Shown here piece by piece: positions 2,985-27,928 of a stretch of DNA of 64,000 nucleotides; position 1 is the stretch's first letter, and each line of letters begins with the position of its first letter. The stretch lies in IMG/VR virus record IMGVR_UViG_3300031957_001651, positions 27,807-91,806 of that record; one strand, 5' to 3'. Source of the stretch: a virus. The translations under genes and the position numbers were made by a program. The notes under the pieces were generated by a model that was not told the DNA's origin, made no database searches, and saw only the letters and a list, made by a program, of their open reading frames with translations.

Positions 2985-3988
2985 TGGATTTTTTAAAAGA
3001 TATTGTCAAAGAGATTGGCAATGAATACGCACAAATTGCATCGGATATAGATGAAACAGAAACTTACGTGGACACAGGTTCGTACATCTTTAACGGAGTT
3101 GTTTCAGGTAGTATATTTGGTGGTGTATCTGGGAATAAGATTACTGCCATTGCTGGCGAGTCTAGTACTGGAAAAACTTTTTTCAGTCTCGCCGTTGTCA
3201 AAAACTTCCTGGATACTAATCCTGACGGTATGTGTATATATTTTGACACTGAAGCCGCTGTTAACAAGTCTCTACTCTCAAGTCGTGGGGTAGATCTTCA
3301 ACGTACTGTTGTGATGAATGTTGTCACTATTGAGGAGTTTCGTAGTAAGGCACTCAAGATTGTTGATCGATACCTAAAAGATCCTGTAGAAGACCGCAAA
3401 CCACTGATGTTTGTGTTAGACTCTTTAGGGATGCTATCGACTGAGAAGGAGATTACAGACGCACTGAACGATAAGCAGGTTCGTGATATGACGAAATCTC
3501 AACTTATCAAAGGTGCTTTCCGTATGCTTACACTCAAGTTGGGTCAAGCAAACATTCCAATGATCGTTACCAACCACACTTATGATGTCATCGGTGCTTA
3601 TGTTCCAACTAAAGAAATGGGAGGAGGTAGTGGACTCAAGTATGCTGCTTCTACAATCATCCATCTCAGTAAAAAGAAGGAAAAGGATGGAACAGAAGTT
3701 ATTGGAAACCTTATCAAGGCAAAGACTGCTAAGTCACGTTTAAGTAAGGAGAATAAAGATGTTACGGTGCGTTTGTATTACGATGAGCGTGGTCTTGATC
3801 GATATTATGGTCTTCTTGAACTCGGTGAGATTGGCGGACTTTGGAAAAATGTAGCAGGTCGTTATGAAATGGATGGTAAGAAAGTCTATGCAAAGGCAAT
3901 TTACAAAGATCCAGAGACTTATTTCACTCCAGAAGTAATGGAGAAACTTGACAAGGTGGCAAAAAAAGAGTTTAGTTATGGAAACTGA
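2984..3988 (+). CDS. uvsX: UvsX RecA-like recombinase
   Basis: The T4-type RecA homologue that loads on single-stranded DNA and drives strand exchange for recombination-dependent replication and repair. It is 334 residues, close to the usual phage length. Walker A is GESSTGKT (near 3154) and Walker B is LMFVLDSLGML (near 3405). A GGGSGLKYAAS segment in the C-terminal half fits the RecA DNA-binding region. It starts one base into the previous stop and overlaps the next gene by 11 bases. The position between polymerase and helicase genes supports the call. Confidence 0.95.
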   Translation: MDFLKDIVKEIGNEYAQIASDIDETETYVDTGSYIFNGVVSGSIFGGVSGNKITAIAGESSTGKTFFSLAVVKNFLDTNPDGMCIYFDTEAAVNKSLLSSRGVDLQRTVVMNVVTIEEFRSKALKIVDRYLKDPVEDRKPLMFVLDSLGMLSTEKEITDALNDKQVRDMTKSQLIKGAFRMLTLKLGQANIPMIVTNHTYDVIGAYVPTKEMGGGSGLKYAASTIIHLSKKKEKDGTEVIGNLIKAKTAKSRLSKENKDVTVRLYYDERGLDRYYGLLELGEIGGLWKNVAGRYEMDGKKVYAKAIYKDPETYFTPEVMEKLDKVAKKEFSYGN

Positions 3989-4721
3989 GAATAAATCTGG
4001 GGAGGACAGGTCAGTTGAAGTTTTTCCTGGAATGCATGGATTATTTGCAAGTCCAGTTCTCACTTTAAATTTCACTGAATCTGTTCATGGTATGAATGAA
4101 CAATTGGTTTCTGATATTGCATCTGAATGTGAGAAAGATTCAAAAGGAATTGTTCAAAGTAACTTTGGTGGATGGCATAGTAAATATGGGATGGAGAAAG
4201 ATTATCAAAGTTTTCTCAGTCTTAGAAGTATTGTCACAGGATTTGCAAATAGTTATTGTGATAACTGTGGATGGGCAAAAGGATTGGAGTGCTCAGATTT
4301 GTGGGCAAACATTAATGGACCTGGTGATATTAACTTTCCTCACCAACACAATCTTTCTTCTCTCTCCGCAATATATTATCCAATAGGATGGTTAGATGGT
4401 GAAGAGACTTTCTATAATTATCACGAAGAAACTGTCTGGTTACAACCACAAACCTGTAATGGTGTTGACGGAGGATCACTTACATTCTATGATCCTAATC
4501 ATGGGAAAAGAATCCATCTAGATCCAGTGAGAGACGAATGGCATACGGTAAGTGCTATGCACATATACCCAACTGCTGGTTTACTTATTTTATTTCCGAC
4601 TTACCTAGTCCACTCTGTGAATCCTTTTAAGGAACCAAACCGCAAACGTATTAGCATATCATTTCAATTTAGTTATGGACAAGGTAGAAATTCTGATTCT
4701 GAAGAATCTATTGAACAATGA
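3978..4721 (+). CDS. 2OG-Fe(II) oxygenase-like protein (TIGR02466 type)
   Basis: A 247-residue putative oxygenase. The segment DLWANINGPGD...FPHQHN gives the first His pair and LFPTYLVHSVNPF the distal His, followed by RKRISISFQF with the Arg expected to bind 2-oxoglutarate; this arrangement matches the TIGR02466 family known from cyanophages. The ATG at 3978 is chosen over an upstream TTG at 3948 because it is the first ATG and gives the shorter overlap with uvsX. The end overlaps the helicase gene by 47 bases, which is long for this genome. Substrate unknown. Confidence 0.82.
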   Translation: METENKSGEDRSVEVFPGMHGLFASPVLTLNFTESVHGMNEQLVSDIASECEKDSKGIVQSNFGGWHSKYGMEKDYQSFLSLRSIVTGFANSYCDNCGWAKGLECSDLWANINGPGDINFPHQHNLSSLSAIYYPIGWLDGEETFYNYHEETVWLQPQTCNGVDGGSLTFYDPNHGKRIHLDPVRDEWHTVSAMHIYPTAGLLILFPTYLVHSVNPFKEPNRKRISISFQFSYGQGRNSDSEESIEQ

Positions 4722-7381: not shown

Positions 7382-8095
7382 ATGGACAGCAAGACTTTCA
7401 ACTCTCTTTCTGAAGCATATTCTGCAGTTTATTCTGATAACGTAGAAGAAACTTATACAGTCACTGCTGCTGATAAGAAAGGTAATACCAAAGCATATCA
7501 GAATTATAAGGCAGGAATGAAAAAGAAGGACGGTAGTCCTATGTACAAGTCTGCTGACCATATGGATGAGGAAAAGAAAGAACTTCCCAAGAATAAGATG
7601 TTCCGTAAGGCAGGAAACTTAGGACGTGATGTTGTAAGTCCTTCTGTGACTGATGACCAACGTCAGAAAGCATATGATCGTTCTAAGAAGATCATTAAGA
7701 CTTTGAACAAAGCAAATGAAGAACTTGAGACTGTAGATGAAGCCGAGCAGAGAGTGAAGGCAAAGGCCGATAAAAAGATGAAGGTCTATGGTGGTCCTGC
7801 ATACATCAAGAAACCTGATGTGAAGAAAGAAGAACTTGAAGCAACTGGTCTCTTTACAGAAGAGGAGATTAATGCTATCCTAGAATCTGACGAGCAGTTT
7901 GACGAAGCAATGAGTTCTTATGACCGCAATCGCAAGAGAGCAGCACAGAGAGCAGCAGACAGAAATGCAGCAAGAGCAGCAGGTAAAACTGGTGTAGTTC
8001 CTGGTGTTGGGTATGTAACTCCTAGAAAAGAAAGAGAGACTTATACTGACGAGAAGGGAACAACCCGTCATAAGTCAGGAGCAAAGATGCCCTGA
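7382..8095 (+). CDS. Lys/Glu-rich late protein, possible internal head protein
   Basis: A 237-residue, highly charged, low-complexity protein with Arg/Ala-rich stretch (NRKRAAQRAADRNAAR) near the C-terminus and no known domain. Its N-terminus KTFNSLSEA resembles the capsid-targeting sequence of T4 internal proteins, and LSE-A fits the T4 prohead protease cleavage pattern (L or I, x, Glu, then a small residue). The late promoter at 7354 and the two next late genes support a virion role. Both structure and function are otherwise unknown; the head-protein role is inference. Confidence 0.72.
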   Translation: MDSKTFNSLSEAYSAVYSDNVEETYTVTAADKKGNTKAYQNYKAGMKKKDGSPMYKSADHMDEEKKELPKNKMFRKAGNLGRDVVSPSVTDDQRQKAYDRSKKIIKTLNKANEELETVDEAEQRVKAKADKKMKVYGGPAYIKKPDVKKEELEATGLFTEEEINAILESDEQFDEAMSSYDRNRKRAAQRAADRNAARAAGKTGVVPGVGYVTPRKERETYTDEKGTTRHKSGAKMP

Positions 8096-8103
8096 GCATC
8101 TTT

Positions 8104-8176
8104 GGGGAATTAACTCAGTTGGTAGAGTGCAACCTTTGCAAGGTTGAAGTCAGGAGTTCGAGTCTCCTATTCTCCA
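8104..8176 (+). tRNA. tRNA-Ala (TGC)
   Basis: A 73-base cloverleaf. The acceptor GGGGAAT pairs with ATTCTCC and contains the G3-T70 wobble pair that identifies alanine tRNA. The D stem is CTC/GAG, the anticodon loop TTTGCAA gives anticodon TGC, and the T arm is intact. It stands alone, 7 kb from the nearest other tRNA gene, with no CCA encoded. The last base is shared with the next late promoter. Confidence 0.95.
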
Positions 8177-8182
8177 TAAATA
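8175..8182 (+). promoter_or_regulatory. late promoter CATAAATA
   Basis: CATAAATA overlaps the last two bases of the tRNA-Ala gene and lies 13 bases before the ATG at 8195. It is a seven-of-eight match to the T4 late motif and would drive the 8195 gene. Confidence 0.65.
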
Positions 8183-8194
8183 AAAATAAAAAAA

Positions 8195-9529
8195 ATGGCA
8201 ACTGTCGCAGAAACATTACTTGCCCTTAATGAGATTCTTCAGGATTATGATACTGAAGTGAAGAGTGCTGGAACTAGAGTTACAACTCTTCATGTTCGCA
8301 CTAAAGAAAGGTCAGAAGCAAGGGAAGAAATTAAAGCAGCATTTGCTAAGAAAAATATAAAGGTCGAACAAACCAAAGTTCCTGGATCTACTTTTGAAGG
8401 TCTAAAGGTATCTGAGAGTTCTTCCACATATTTAAATATTGTATTCAAACCAAAAGCAGGTGGTGGATCTGGTGCTGGTGCAGCTGTTACTAAGATGGCA
8501 GAATCTGCACAAGCAGTTTATGCCGCAGTAGCATTTGGTCTTGGTAGAGAGATAACTCACTCAGATATTACTCCAGATAATGTCAATGCAAATAAAGATA
8601 AGTTTGATGTTGATGAGAATGTTGAAAAGATATTGAATGAACTTCCTGATGATTGGATCGAGTCATCAGTTCTTGGTGCTAATGAATTGTGGAATAAATT
8701 TAAAGGAATAAAATCAGGAATAAAATTTCATAGAGGTTCAAAGACTGTAGATCATATTGAAAATCAATTTAAGAGAATTAAAAAGATTGAAGGGATTAGA
8801 GTTGATATTAATAAGTGGTCTCCAGCAGACATTTATGTGACTACTCCAGGATATAATCCTAAGTGTTTGGAAGATGAGAAATCAATTAAAGGGTTGAATC
8901 AATGTATGAATGAAAGAATCAATCCAACCAATCCAAAGATGTTTGGAGTTTCTCTTAAAAAGATGTCTAGAACTTCTAATCTAAAGATTCTTAATTATGA
9001 TAAAAAAGATTCTCTGGAGAAAGAGTTTACCAACTTCACCATGAACTATGATAGTATTGACACGTATTTGAATTTTAGTGATGGAACAAAGATTCAGTTT
9101 AGATCTTTTGGTGGTGCTACTGCATTAACTGGATGGCAAGGTGAAGTGAAAGGTCAGAAGGCAAATCAAGGAAAAATATCTTTGGGACCAGTTAACCTTC
9201 TCCTCAAGATGCACGGTGTTCCTCAGATAGACACTACATATGCTAGAAAGATAAAGTCAAATCCAGCAGATATCATAAAATATGTTACTGATGGTTTAGA
9301 TAAATATGCAACAGGATACACAGTTCAAAAGTTTGCTAAATTGCAATTAGATAAGACTAAGAAAAACCAATTTGATTCTTGGTTATATTCAAAGGTCCAT
9401 TGTATTGCGATTATAGATGCTATCAATGGTATAAAAAATTCTGAAAAACAGAAGCAAGTTTGTGAGGATTTTTACCTCTATGCCAATTCTAGATCATCAT
9501 TGTCATCTCCGTACTGGAAATTAGAATAA
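8195..9529 (+). CDS. late protein with nuclease-like (PD-(D/E)XK-like) pattern
   Basis: A 444-residue protein of unknown function expressed from its own late promoter. The middle contains KWSPADIYV followed about 45 residues later by FGVSLKKM; this spacing and the buried-strand character resemble a PD-(D/E)XK nuclease core with Ser in place of the usual Glu or Gln. A Gly-rich linker (GGGSGAG) near residue 90 separates the N-terminal region. In related phages such late proteins are usually annotated as virion structural proteins. The nuclease-like reading is inference from pattern only. Confidence 0.7.
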   Translation: MATVAETLLALNEILQDYDTEVKSAGTRVTTLHVRTKERSEAREEIKAAFAKKNIKVEQTKVPGSTFEGLKVSESSSTYLNIVFKPKAGGGSGAGAAVTKMAESAQAVYAAVAFGLGREITHSDITPDNVNANKDKFDVDENVEKILNELPDDWIESSVLGANELWNKFKGIKSGIKFHRGSKTVDHIENQFKRIKKIEGIRVDINKWSPADIYVTTPGYNPKCLEDEKSIKGLNQCMNERINPTNPKMFGVSLKKMSRTSNLKILNYDKKDSLEKEFTNFTMNYDSIDTYLNFSDGTKIQFRSFGGATALTGWQGEVKGQKANQGKISLGPVNLLLKMHGVPQIDTTYARKIKSNPADIIKYVTDGLDKYATGYTVQKFAKLQLDKTKKNQFDSWLYSKVHCIAIIDAINGIKNSEKQKQVCEDFYLYANSRSSLSSPYWKLE

Positions 9530-9532
9530 ATA
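9526..9532 (+). promoter_or_regulatory. late promoter ATAAATA
   Basis: ATAAATA overlaps the stop codon of the 8195 gene and lies 24 bases before the ATG at 9556. It matches the last seven bases of the T4 late promoter and is spaced as at the other late genes in this block. Confidence 0.6.
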
Positions 9533-9555
9533 ATACATAAGGACTAATAACATAA

Positions 9556-10779
9556 ATGAAAAGTTTTCTACAGTTCCTAAAAGAAGCAGGTGAGGGTGCC
9601 TCAGCACAGGCAAAGAAACTCAACCTTAAGAGTGATGGACATGGTGGTTGGTATGACTCTCGTGGTGAATTTGTTGCGAAAACTGAAGGTGGAAAACTAA
9701 AATTTTATAATAAGAACCAGAAGGTTGGTGAGAGAGACGGTAATCAAGATACAAATCAGGTTGCACAAAAGCAAGACGAAACTAAGAAGAAGCAAAAGAA
9801 AGAAGAACCCAAAGGTGATTCTAAGAAAGAATCACCAGAAGAAGATAAAGATGAGCAGTCTGATACCTTAACTATTGTATTTGGTAGGTTTAATCCACCA
9901 ACAGTTGGTCATGAAAAACTTCTGAGTATGGCAAAGAAATCTTCTACTGGTGGAGATTATAAAGTATACCCTTCACGTTCTCAGGATCCTAAGAAGAACC
10001 CTCTTGATCCTGACATGAAGATTTCATTTATGAAGAAAATGTTCTCTGATTATGAAGAGAACATTGTCAATGATCCAGAAATGAAAAATATATTTGATGT
10101 TCTGGTAGCAGCAAATGAAGATGGATATGGAAATGTAAATATTGTTGTTGGTTCAGATCGACAAGCAGAGTTTGAGAATCTTGCTCAGAAATATAATGGT
10201 CAACTTTATGAGTTTGATTTGATTCGTGTCATCTCTGCTGGTGTAAGAGATGCAGATGCTGAAGGTGTAGAAGGAATGTCTGCATCCAAGATGCGTAAAG
10301 CAGTTATTGCTGATGACTTTGAATCATTCCGTAAAGGAACACCTAAGAAACTTGATGATGGTGATACTAAGGCACTCTTTAATGCAGTCCGCACTGGTAT
10401 GAAACTGAAGAGTAAAGAAAAAGTTACTGCAGAGATGTGGGAAATTGCTCCCAAGTATGATCATAAAGGACTTCGTGAAAACTATATTTCTGGGAAAATT
10501 TTTAGTCTTGGAGATATTGTAGAGAATCTAAACACTGGATTGGTTGGTGAAATTATTCGTAGAGGAACTAATCACCTTATTTGTGTTACTAAAGAAAACT
10601 ATATGTTCAAGTCCTGGATTAAGGATGTGATGGAAGCAGTTGTAAATTATCCTGGTCCTTCTGGTGTACCTGGTCCAGAGAGAGAAGTTGGAACTGATTC
10701 AAATAGAAACTATACGATGAGAATGACTGGAACGACTGCTATAAAGAATTTCATAAATAAGTATAAGGCTAAAAAGTAA
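9556..10779 (+). CDS. nucleotidyltransferase-domain late protein with capsid-targeting-like N-terminus
   Basis: A 407-residue multidomain protein. Residues 1-11 (MKSFLQFLKEA) closely resemble the 10-residue capsid-targeting sequence of T4 internal proteins, with cleavage expected after Glu10. A charged linker follows to about residue 100. Residues 105-280 form a cytidylyltransferase-like domain: VFGRFNPPTVGHEKLL carries the TxGH nucleotide-binding motif, VVGSDR a Rossmann strand, and MSASKMRKA the equivalent of the ISSTxxR motif. The last 100 residues are a further domain of unknown role. Cyanophage relatives are annotated as nucleotidyltransferases or NMN adenylyltransferase-like. The substrate is unknown; packaging into the head is inference. 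Confidence 0.82.
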   Translation: MKSFLQFLKEAGEGASAQAKKLNLKSDGHGGWYDSRGEFVAKTEGGKLKFYNKNQKVGERDGNQDTNQVAQKQDETKKKQKKEEPKGDSKKESPEEDKDEQSDTLTIVFGRFNPPTVGHEKLLSMAKKSSTGGDYKVYPSRSQDPKKNPLDPDMKISFMKKMFSDYEENIVNDPEMKNIFDVLVAANEDGYGNVNIVVGSDRQAEFENLAQKYNGQLYEFDLIRVISAGVRDADAEGVEGMSASKMRKAVIADDFESFRKGTPKKLDDGDTKALFNAVRTGMKLKSKEKVTAEMWEIAPKYDHKGLRENYISGKIFSLGDIVENLNTGLVGEIIRRGTNHLICVTKENYMFKSWIKDVMEAVVNYPGPSGVPGPEREVGTDSNRNYTMRMTGTTAIKNFINKYKAKK

Positions 10780-10793
10780 AACATTTTATACTC

Positions 10794-12155
10794 ATGTCAA
10801 TGAATCCTCTTAACGATATTTCTCAAGTATATCTTGAGAAGGTATCAAACGTTTCTGAAAAGAAAGACGATTCATATCTTGAGACAGATATGAAGAAACG
10901 TCAGAAGAATAATGAGAAGGCACGTAAGGAACTTGCCAAGGGTCCTCAAATGAAGAACCCCCACTTTGAAGAGAAGCAACTTGATCCCGTAGGACAAGAA
11001 GATGCTGATGTTGACAATGATGGTAAGAAGAATACTAAGTCTGATAAGTATTTGAAGAATAGACGTAAGGCAATTGCCAAAGCAATAAAGGAAGCAAAAC
11101 ATGCTACTGCAAAGCAGATGCATTCTCCTCATGAAGTTCCAACAGGAGACATCAAAAAATTAGTAAAGAAAGCAGTTAAGAGAATTGATACTGATGTAGA
11201 TGGTGATACAGATAATAACGATAAGGCAAAGGGAGAACTTGGTGAGTTTATTCCTGGTGTAGGAAATAAGAGATTATATTCAACCACTAAAACCACAACA
11301 GCAAAAGAAGGATATTCAAACTGGAGAGATGATCTTCGTGAAGTTGTTGGTGAAGATAGTGAAGATCGGAAGCAAGTAAAAGAAAAGAATGTAAAGAATA
11401 CTATTAAGATTAATCCTAAGATTTCTGAGGAAGTTACGATCCTAGAAAACACTGAGATGGATGAAGTAGATCTTGCTGCTTATACTGTGTACGATGAACT
11501 AGTTAATGAAGGATTTGACGTATATGATGTAGAAGATGCTATTGAGTATGCGATTATTGAAGCAACAGTAACTTTCGGTCATGATACCGAGAAACCACAT
11601 GAGAAAGATACTTCTACTGGTCGCATGGTGAAGGCAGTTGGTAGACTTGCAAGACAGAAACTTAAGTCTACTGGTAAGAAAGCAAGACTAAAGTCTGCCC
11701 AAGCACAAGTTGCTGCTTACAATAAAGGTAGAGAAGTCAAGCAAAAAGTAGGTGATAAAGCAAGAGGTGCAAAATCTGGTATCAAAGCAAAGATCAGAAA
11801 GGCAGCACAGAAAGTTGTTAATCGTATGAGTGAGGAGACTTCTATGTCAATGACTCCTCAAGAAGTTGCACTTCAGAAGAAGAAGGCAATGATTGATCAG
11901 CAAATTGCACAGAAGAGAAAACAGTCTTTAAATAAAGTTGCAAAGGAAGAAACCGAAGATTCTCTAAGAGATCGTCGCATGGAACGTGGTGGTGTTGATG
12001 GCAACAACCGTTACGACAAACCAATTAGTAACACACCGAATACATTTGGTAAGAAAAAACCAAAGTATGATGGTATGTCTGCACTTGAGAAAGTAAAGGC
12101 AAGCATCCGTGCCAAGCATGGACAGGGTGCAATCATAGATACGAGGAAAAAGTAA
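10794..12155 (+). CDS. Lys-rich late protein with Ca-loop-like Asp repeats
   Basis: A 453-residue basic, low-complexity protein, probably virion-associated. It has two Asp-rich loops: DADVDNDGKKN (near 11000) and DTDVDGDTDNND (11187-11222). The second fits an EF-hand loop with Asp at positions 1, 3, 5, 9 and 12 and Gly at 6. The C-terminal half is Lys/Ala/Arg-rich (KSTGKKARLKSAQAQ) and could bind DNA. The start could be the ATG at 10794 or 10800; neither has a strong ribosome site. It overlaps the next gene by one base. No enzyme domain is visible. Confidence 0.75.
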   Translation: MSMNPLNDISQVYLEKVSNVSEKKDDSYLETDMKKRQKNNEKARKELAKGPQMKNPHFEEKQLDPVGQEDADVDNDGKKNTKSDKYLKNRRKAIAKAIKEAKHATAKQMHSPHEVPTGDIKKLVKKAVKRIDTDVDGDTDNNDKAKGELGEFIPGVGNKRLYSTTKTTTAKEGYSNWRDDLREVVGEDSEDRKQVKEKNVKNTIKINPKISEEVTILENTEMDEVDLAAYTVYDELVNEGFDVYDVEDAIEYAIIEATVTFGHDTEKPHEKDTSTGRMVKAVGRLARQKLKSTGKKARLKSAQAQVAAYNKGREVKQKVGDKARGAKSGIKAKIRKAAQKVVNRMSEETSMSMTPQEVALQKKKAMIDQQIAQKRKQSLNKVAKEETEDSLRDRRMERGGVDGNNRYDKPISNTPNTFGKKKPKYDGMSALEKVKASIRAKHGQGAIIDTRKK

Positions 12156-12373
12156 TGCCTGCAATATCTAGAGCACAGCAAAGGTTTATGGGAATGGTCC
12201 ATGCCGTAAAGAAGGGAGAGATGGAAGCACCTTCTCCCGAAGTTGCTCAAGCAGCAGCATCAATGAAGAAAAAAGATGCAAAGGATTTTGCATCAACAAA
12301 ACACAAAGGTTTACCTGAGAAGAAAAAGAAGACTTTCAAGGAGTTTTTGGAATATATAGAATATACTACTTGA
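12155..12373 (+). CDS. DUF3008-like small basic protein
   Basis: A 72-residue basic protein beginning PAISRAQQRFMGMVHAVKKG and containing KKDAKDFASTKHKGLP, which I recognise as the DUF3008 family seen in many phages and some bacteria. No biochemical function is known. It sits at the end of the late block and shares one base with the preceding gene. The ending KTFKEFLEYIE resembles the capsid-targeting motif of its neighbours but is at the wrong end of the protein. Confidence 0.85.
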   Translation: MPAISRAQQRFMGMVHAVKKGEMEAPSPEVAQAAASMKKKDAKDFASTKHKGLPEKKKKTFKEFLEYIEYTT

Positions 12374-27610: not shown

Positions 27611-27928
27611 ATGGCATACAAAGGAACAGCAGCAAAATCTTCAAGTGGTGCATCTATGTCAAAGTATGACGTAGAAGTCGAAGCAAGACTTAAAGCACTG
27701 GAAGCAGAAGCACATACAAAGCCAACTGGTGCTACTGCAGCAAAGGTTGAAGAGAGACTATCTGCTTTGGAAGCAAAAGCACACACACCTTGCGAAGGTG
27801 GTGGTAAGTCTGCTAAAGTAAATGCAGCAGCACTTCCAGCCAATGCTCCTAGAAAGACTACTCAACCACAAGGAAGAATCGACGCACTAGAAGCAAGACT
27901 TGAGGCACTAATCGCACAACTTTCCTGA
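27611..27928 (+). CDS. Ala-rich coiled-coil late protein
   Basis: A 105-residue protein with three similar heptad-type segments (VEARLKALEAEAH, VEERLSALEAKAH, IDALEARLEALIAQL), indicating an internally repeated coiled coil separated by Pro/Gly-rich linkers. Its own late promoter suggests a virion role such as a small fibre or trimerising element. No catalytic domain. Function is not known. Confidence 0.75.
   Translation: MAYKGTAAKSSSGASMSKYDVEVEARLKALEAEAHTKPTGATAAKVEERLSALEAKAHTPCEGGGKSAKVNAAALPANAPRKTTQPQGRIDALEARLEALIAQLS

Follow-up and report, generated by a model that had tools for sequence, protein, structure and literature searches.

The window analyzed here is a 64,000-nucleotide stretch (positions 27807 to 91806) of the 91,806-base virus record IMGVR_UViG_3300031957_001651, a marine T4-like cyanomyovirus. 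Among annotated phages it stands closest to Synechococcus phage S-SCSM1 (Kyanoviridae), which it matches at 83.8% identity across 81% of a 4-kb query. The gene of interest, at window position 9556, sits in the same gene order in S-SCSM1 and encodes a protein (hereafter, the 9556 protein) that joins an adenylyltransferase-type enzyme to a putative capsid-targeting sequence (CTS) like those of the T4 internal proteins. Its features are as follows:

9556..10779, plus strand: open frame for the CTS-tagged adenylyltransferase-fold protein (NMNAT-like), 407 amino acids (aa); the S-SCSM1 orthologue, open reading frame (ORF) 91, is labelled NMNAT and is a virion protein
9556..9585, plus strand: predicted CTS, MKSFLQFLKE (codons 1-10), with the predicted prohead-protease cut between 9585 and 9586; based on conservation, T4 mutagenesis (positions 4/7/8/10) and portability
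9586..9609, plus strand: hypervariable spacer with indels between homologues (alignment)
9610..9711, plus strand: small SDGHGGW module (codons 19-52) that other virion proteins also have
9715..9855, plus strand: charged linker (codons 54-100), predicted to be disordered (pLDDT <50)
9865..10341, plus strand: adenylyltransferase-type catalytic domain, from a fold match and invariant residues (GRFNPPTVGH at 9883-9912, MSASKMR at 10276-10296)
10462..10776, plus strand: C-terminal helix and beta domain (from the structural model)

The N-terminal tag of the 9556 protein

The original prediction held that this protein starts with MKSFLQFLKEAGEG and that its first ten residues, MKSFLQFLKE/A (the slash marks the cleavage site), mirror the CTS of T4 internal proteins. 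Both statements are correct: IPII and IPIII in NC_000866 begin MKTYQEFIAE/A (IPI begins MKTFKEFTST), and the 9556 protein shares with the three internal proteins a ten-residue N-terminal tag, key positions 4, 7, 8 and 10, and an L/I-x-E/A site. In T4 IPIII, mutagenesis assigns targeting to residues 4 and 7, whereas residues 8 and 10 govern processing, the cut falling behind L/I-x-E (PMC9026906). The conserved positions of the 9556 tag coincide with these. Across 35 homologues, reaching down to ~45% identity, M1, K2, F7 and E10 never change and F4, L8 and A11 hardly do (F4 in 33/35, with L in the other two; F7 and E10 in 35/35; L8 and A11 in 34/35; the two 35-homologue sets used for conservation differ by one member), such that the tag is indeed kept among close homologues, on which the original prediction had staked itself. 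Synonymous codons vary at the conserved positions (F7 is TTT in 19 and TTC in 16; E10 is GAG in 20 and GAA in 15), and the constraint therefore acts on the protein.

Scored against a CTS profile, the 9556 protein reaches +28.9, far beyond chance, and T4 IPII reaches +20.3; the former value is partly circular, since relatives of the 9556 protein are among the tagged IMG/VR proteins from which the profile was derived, but the T4 value is not. That the tag is a separable unit is evident from the homologue in S-CRM01, which has lost the spacer, the SDGHGGW module and the linker and yet begins with MKLFNQFFKEAE, followed directly by the catalytic domain. An exception is the homologue in S-CAM9, which begins with a shifted and poorer version of the tag.

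The machinery that would act on such a tag is encoded upstream of the window: a gp21-type prohead protease (Peptidase_S77, 120 bits; record positions 3897-4352) and a gp22-like core protein. A gp23-like capsid protein, also upstream, carries GSFLAE/A, at the position corresponding to the site where T4 gp23 is cleaved. When the whole record was scanned with the strict motif, the 9556 protein was the sole match, so the tag is not borne by a series of genes within this phage.

Tagged proteins in virions and in uncultured viruses

Nucleotidyltransferases of the same family (NMNAT-like or cytidylyltransferase proteins) have been reported from the virions of four T4-like cyanophages, and all four are tagged: S-SCSM1 ORF91, the orthologue of the 9556 protein, starts MKSFLQFLKEA (PMC9602691), and the others start MKKFSAFLNEA (S-SM1; PMC3037559), MRFRQFIIEA (S-SZBM1; PMC9146016) and MKNFSSFLTEA (S-CREM2; PMC10665884). 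The publications consulted on these virion enzymes name no packaging signal; the tag is identified here.

The S-CREM2 proteome, in which 52 of 219 proteins were detected by mass spectrometry (MS) (PMC10665884), allows the tag to be assessed as a predictor of packaging. A profile that takes a single representative from each IMG/VR cluster was used to rank all 219 annotated proteins by their N-termini; the five highest scores all belong to MS-detected proteins (chance probability, 6.5e-4), namely ORF154, a cytidylyltransferase (MKNFSSFLTEA), ORF136 (MQTFSMFFSED), ORF13 (MKDLHSFLTEQ), ORF6, an S-adenosylmethionine (SAM) hydrolase (MKDFDSFLEEF), and ORF14, a kinase (MKRFDAFLTEE). The N-termini had been viewed before the cut was placed at five; with a cut at scores >0 instead, 4/4 are detected (p 0.003). 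Windows taken at internal Met residues (n=800) never score >2.8. Another enzyme in this proteome, ORF12, has RFASFMAE/A behind a 15-residue lead, and the S-CREM2 capsid protein has LLTE/A at the site corresponding to capsid-protein cleavage. By Pfam, the ORF6 SAM hydrolase is an S-AdoMet lyase (L464:3837-5081, minus strand; PF23780, E 2.3e-19), plausibly an injected anti-restriction enzyme.

Several observations weigh against packaging of the 9556 protein by its tag. S-SCSM1 has two strictly tagged annotated proteins, of which ORF91 was detected in virions and ORF30 was not, although with two such proteins this phage alone is too small for a test. The adjacent virion proteins of the 8195 type (named for the gene at position 8195) have no tag, so a tag is not required for presence in the virion. 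The virion NMNAT of S-CBWM1, which we had considered as a further tagged case, also proved to be untagged, and virion association is thus possible without the tag; S-CBWM1 is not T4-like and has no Peptidase_S77. The authors of the S-SCSM1 and S-CREM2 proteomes themselves name carry-over as possible (PMC9602691, PMC10665884), and unique peptides for the nucleotidyltransferase are few (three in S-CREM2 and two in S-SZBM1). The 9556 protein could then be an ordinary late-made intracellular auxiliary metabolic protein, with an N-terminus that serves as an interaction helix of some other purpose. We consider this improbable: the protein was detected repeatedly, in four phages, the tag is a predictor of detection for unrelated proteins as well, and untagged homologues sit in phages that have the gene in other settings. 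These untagged homologues come from jumbo phages and a Pseudoalteromonas phage (the start of the HTVC008M homologue is degenerate), a distribution that fits a tag tied to the T4-type head.

The original prediction called for a search of cyanophage genomes for the motif on other late proteins, and a search of IMG/VR finds it on many unrelated families. Scanning IMG/VR at the DNA level for M-K-x-F-x-[Q/E/D/H]-F-[L/I/M/F]-x-E-A yielded at least 120 stretches, against 10 in the entire collection, mostly short or mid-frame, for a control with Lys and Glu exchanged. Among the matches listed, 117 newly fetched loci hold 122 matches, 121 of which lie at the start of an open frame that has 60 or more codons or is truncated at a contig end; the 114 tagged proteins with 60 or more residues form 36 clusters without detectable mutual similarity (blastp at 1e-4, with the first 14 residues cut off). 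A looser pattern in 18 records gave 38 forward matches, a few of which are not gene starts, versus one for the reversed control. A pattern with Lys at position 6 was dropped as a control because CTS-like proteins are among its own matches (30/51 have Glu at position 10).

To test whether the Glu belongs to the motif, we scanned M-K-T-F-x-[QE]-F-[LIMF] with positions 9 to 11 left free. Glu occupies position 10 in 91/121 proteins, a figure biased upwards by loci first found through the Glu-Ala pattern, and in 55/84 from loci new to the scan, a figure biased downwards; the background is 6.7%. Position 11 is Ala in 32% and Ser in 14%. Peptidase_S77 is present in 4/10 of the larger tag-bearing IMG/VR contigs, including both of those >150 kb, and its absence elsewhere says little because those contigs are fragments.

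Most of the tagged families have no Pfam name. Those that can be assigned include nucleotidyltransferases above the PF01467 cut-off (L199, L267), a GNAT acetyltransferase (L210), an RlpA-like double-psi barrel protein (L191), DUF192 (L153) and DUF6267 (L213) proteins, an NTP_transf_2 protein (L255), a protein weakly similar to RNA 2'-phosphotransferase (L106) and one with an ART-PolyVal domain (L308; E 9.7e-24). Tagged genes can cluster, as in one 14-kb contig (L164, 9.4-7.0 kb, minus strand) with four MKTFx[QE]F starts. In T4 itself, a 54-residue protein (L230; NC_000866 19101-19130, minus strand) starts MKTFKEFIKED and has a CTS score of +19.5; judged by this start, it is possibly an unrecognised packaged T4 protein.

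The enzyme and its proposed delivery

The TxGH motif noted originally is present, as TVGH at residues 116-119, and the 9556 protein has a nucleotidylyltransferase fold with its (H/T)xGH and S-x-x-x-x-R motifs. In an AlphaFold2 model (mean pLDDT 72, pTM 0.47, with the catalytic core mostly >80), a helix spans residues 4-12 and a small beta module residues 31-50; after the disordered linker (54-100) come the catalytic domain and, at the C-terminus, a beta domain. Foldseek searches with this model retrieve structures of pantetheine-phosphate adenylyltransferase (PPAT), NadD and NMNAT (E ~3e-5, target TM ~0.65). The protein falls below the PF01467 cut-off (14.6 bits versus 21), and no NMNAT model in NCBIfam matches it. 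Its GRFNPPTVGH has the GRFxPxxxGH form that occurs in NadM and NadR, for which reason nicotinamide mononucleotide (NMN) or nicotinic acid mononucleotide (NaMN) is the somewhat favored substrate. A further weakness is that the model is of moderate confidence and its fold does not choose among the substrates of PPAT, NadD and NMNAT. The packaged enzyme may instead be a PPAT or another nucleotidylyltransferase unrelated to NAD, a possibility that deserves weight though we hold it to be less probable: PPAT structures are among the best fold matches, NCBIfam offers no NMNAT match and the deposited name is often cytidyltransferase, but the motif resembles NadM/NadR-type enzymes, no sequence family assigns PPAT, and the best folds are adenylyl- rather than cytidylyltransferases.

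The SDGHGGW module recurs in unrelated virion proteins, as SDGHGSY in S-CREM2 ORF12 and in degenerate form in the cluster-C kinases; it is perhaps a second packaging or DNA-contact element.

Of the proposal that the two proteins originally singled out are packed in the head and injected, targeting to the head stands well supported for the 9556 protein, because of residue agreement with the T4 CTS, conservation, portability, the protease in the record and MS-detected tagged orthologues in four other phages; a CTS on the product of the gene at position 7382 is not supported (see below). Under the route that we propose, the 9556 gene would supply a late adenylyltransferase-fold enzyme with a cleavable T4-type CTS, whose residues 1-10 would form an amphipathic helix (F4, F7) docking on the gp22-type scaffold core, so that the enzyme is built into the prohead. 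The gp21-type protease would then cut L-K-E/A after Glu10, leaving the enzyme, from Ala11 onward, among the DNA; on infection it would be ejected with the DNA and would link AMP to a substrate from the host, NMN or NaMN being the likeliest, and so produce NAD, to the possible benefit of the phage. We are highly confident that the protein is packaged by its CTS; cleavage at Glu10, predicted from the site itself, is very likely, and packaging and cleavage together are strongly favored. Injection is probable by analogy with T4. The tag might also direct to the prohead a scaffold-stage helper that is not ejected, having a role in head assembly or staying in the emptied head, and our data address packaging rather than ejection; this is nonetheless unlikely, as the T4 internal proteins that bear this tag are delivered into the host, where they act on its defences, and the cargo families comprise unrelated enzymes instead of assembly proteins.

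Further likenesses to the T4 internal proteins are the T4-type prohead protease in the record and the virion location of the orthologues; the differences are that the cargo is a large enzyme with an SDGHGGW module rather than a small restriction inhibitor, that the host is cyanobacterial and that processing and injection are predictions here. The ADP-ribosyltransferase Alt of T4 is likewise an enzyme packed into a T4-type head, where gp21 cuts its N-terminal propeptide, but it is a different enzyme, the propeptide has seven residues and Alt is also cut at the C-terminus. For the polyvalent proteins of phages and conjugative elements (PMC5512222), too, host-directed domains are proposed to be packed and injected, and ART-PolyVal occurs on a CTS-tagged protein; those proteins are defined by fused domains and not by a targeting tag, and the 9556 protein has one catalytic domain.

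Virion NMNAT-like proteins and the CTS of T-even phages are both already published, and it has been suggested in general terms that T4-like phages use the CTS to pack various proteins (PMC9026906). In the open-licence literature, which is short of a full search, we came across no description of a CTS in cyanophages or of enzymes carried by one there, nor anything for the letters of the tag; a CTS in cyanophages thus appears to be unreported. The presence of enzymes in cyanophage virions has so far been puzzling, and a ten-residue tag that can be read from the gene provides a mechanism for it. From the tag one can also predict, for uncultured T4-like viruses, the proteins that are carried in the head, and hence list those possibly brought into hosts, as well as exact mature N-termini, which can be checked in existing proteome data. 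Delivery in T-even coliphages, whose best-known cargoes are small restriction inhibitors, would be extended to a variety of enzymes from abundant marine viruses. More tentatively, the T4 CTS might be a general delivery code by which marine and freshwater T4-like phages pack and inject dozens of unrelated enzymes (adenylyltransferases, SAM lyases, ART-PolyVal ADP-ribosyltransferases, kinases and GNAT acetyltransferases), with the 9556 enzyme rebuilding NAD in a new host ahead of all phage gene expression, for example against NAD-depleting defences.

Neighboring genes and the 7382 protein

The 9556 gene lies among counterparts of S-SCSM1 virion proteins, which are listed here together with a promoter-like box:

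7382..8095, plus strand: counterpart of ORF89, 237 aa; no CTS; mosaic
8195..9529, plus strand: counterpart of ORF90; no CTS
9525..9532, plus strand: late-promoter-like NATAAATA box (pattern position; consensus match only)
10794..12155, plus strand: counterpart of ORF92; N-terminal motif LNDISQVY
12155..12373, plus strand: DUF3008 protein, counterpart of ORF93

The late promoters originally invoked are plausible, with an ATAAATA/CTAAATA box 20-42 nt upstream of the genes at 7382, 8195, 9556, 10794 and 12688. A tRNA-Ala (TGC) gene at 8103-8177 separates the 7382 and 8195 genes, as it does in S-SCSM1.

The 7382 protein does start with MDSKTFNSLSEAYSAVY, as had been stated, but a CTS there is rejected on its profile score of -3.6 and on comparison with its family. 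Pieces of the protein match different cyanophage proteins. Its N-terminus is without the F-x-x-F-[LI]-x-E spacing at positions 4/7/8/10, is kept among close relatives only, and fits weakly (-0.8) to another motif, LN[DE][IL]S[KQ]VY, of the 10794 family. We accept no cleavage site in the 7382 protein, as relatives with this motif mostly have K, Q, R, D or N instead of Glu at the supposed P1 position. That SLSE/A nevertheless marks a second, divergent CTS is very doubtful: it obeys the bare L/I-x-E rule and the S-SCSM1 counterpart is labelled a virion protein, but both the score and the P1 residues of related N-termini speak against it.

The LN[DE][IL]S[KQ]VY motif heads ~50 divergent homologues of the 10794 virion protein, often with [IV]-x-E a few residues on. 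The DUF3008 protein at 12155-12373 ends with KKKTFKEFLEYIEYTT, a CTS-like core at the C-terminus; the tagged protein L100 also ends NFAQFMLEGG, and T4 Alt likewise has a C-terminal propeptide.

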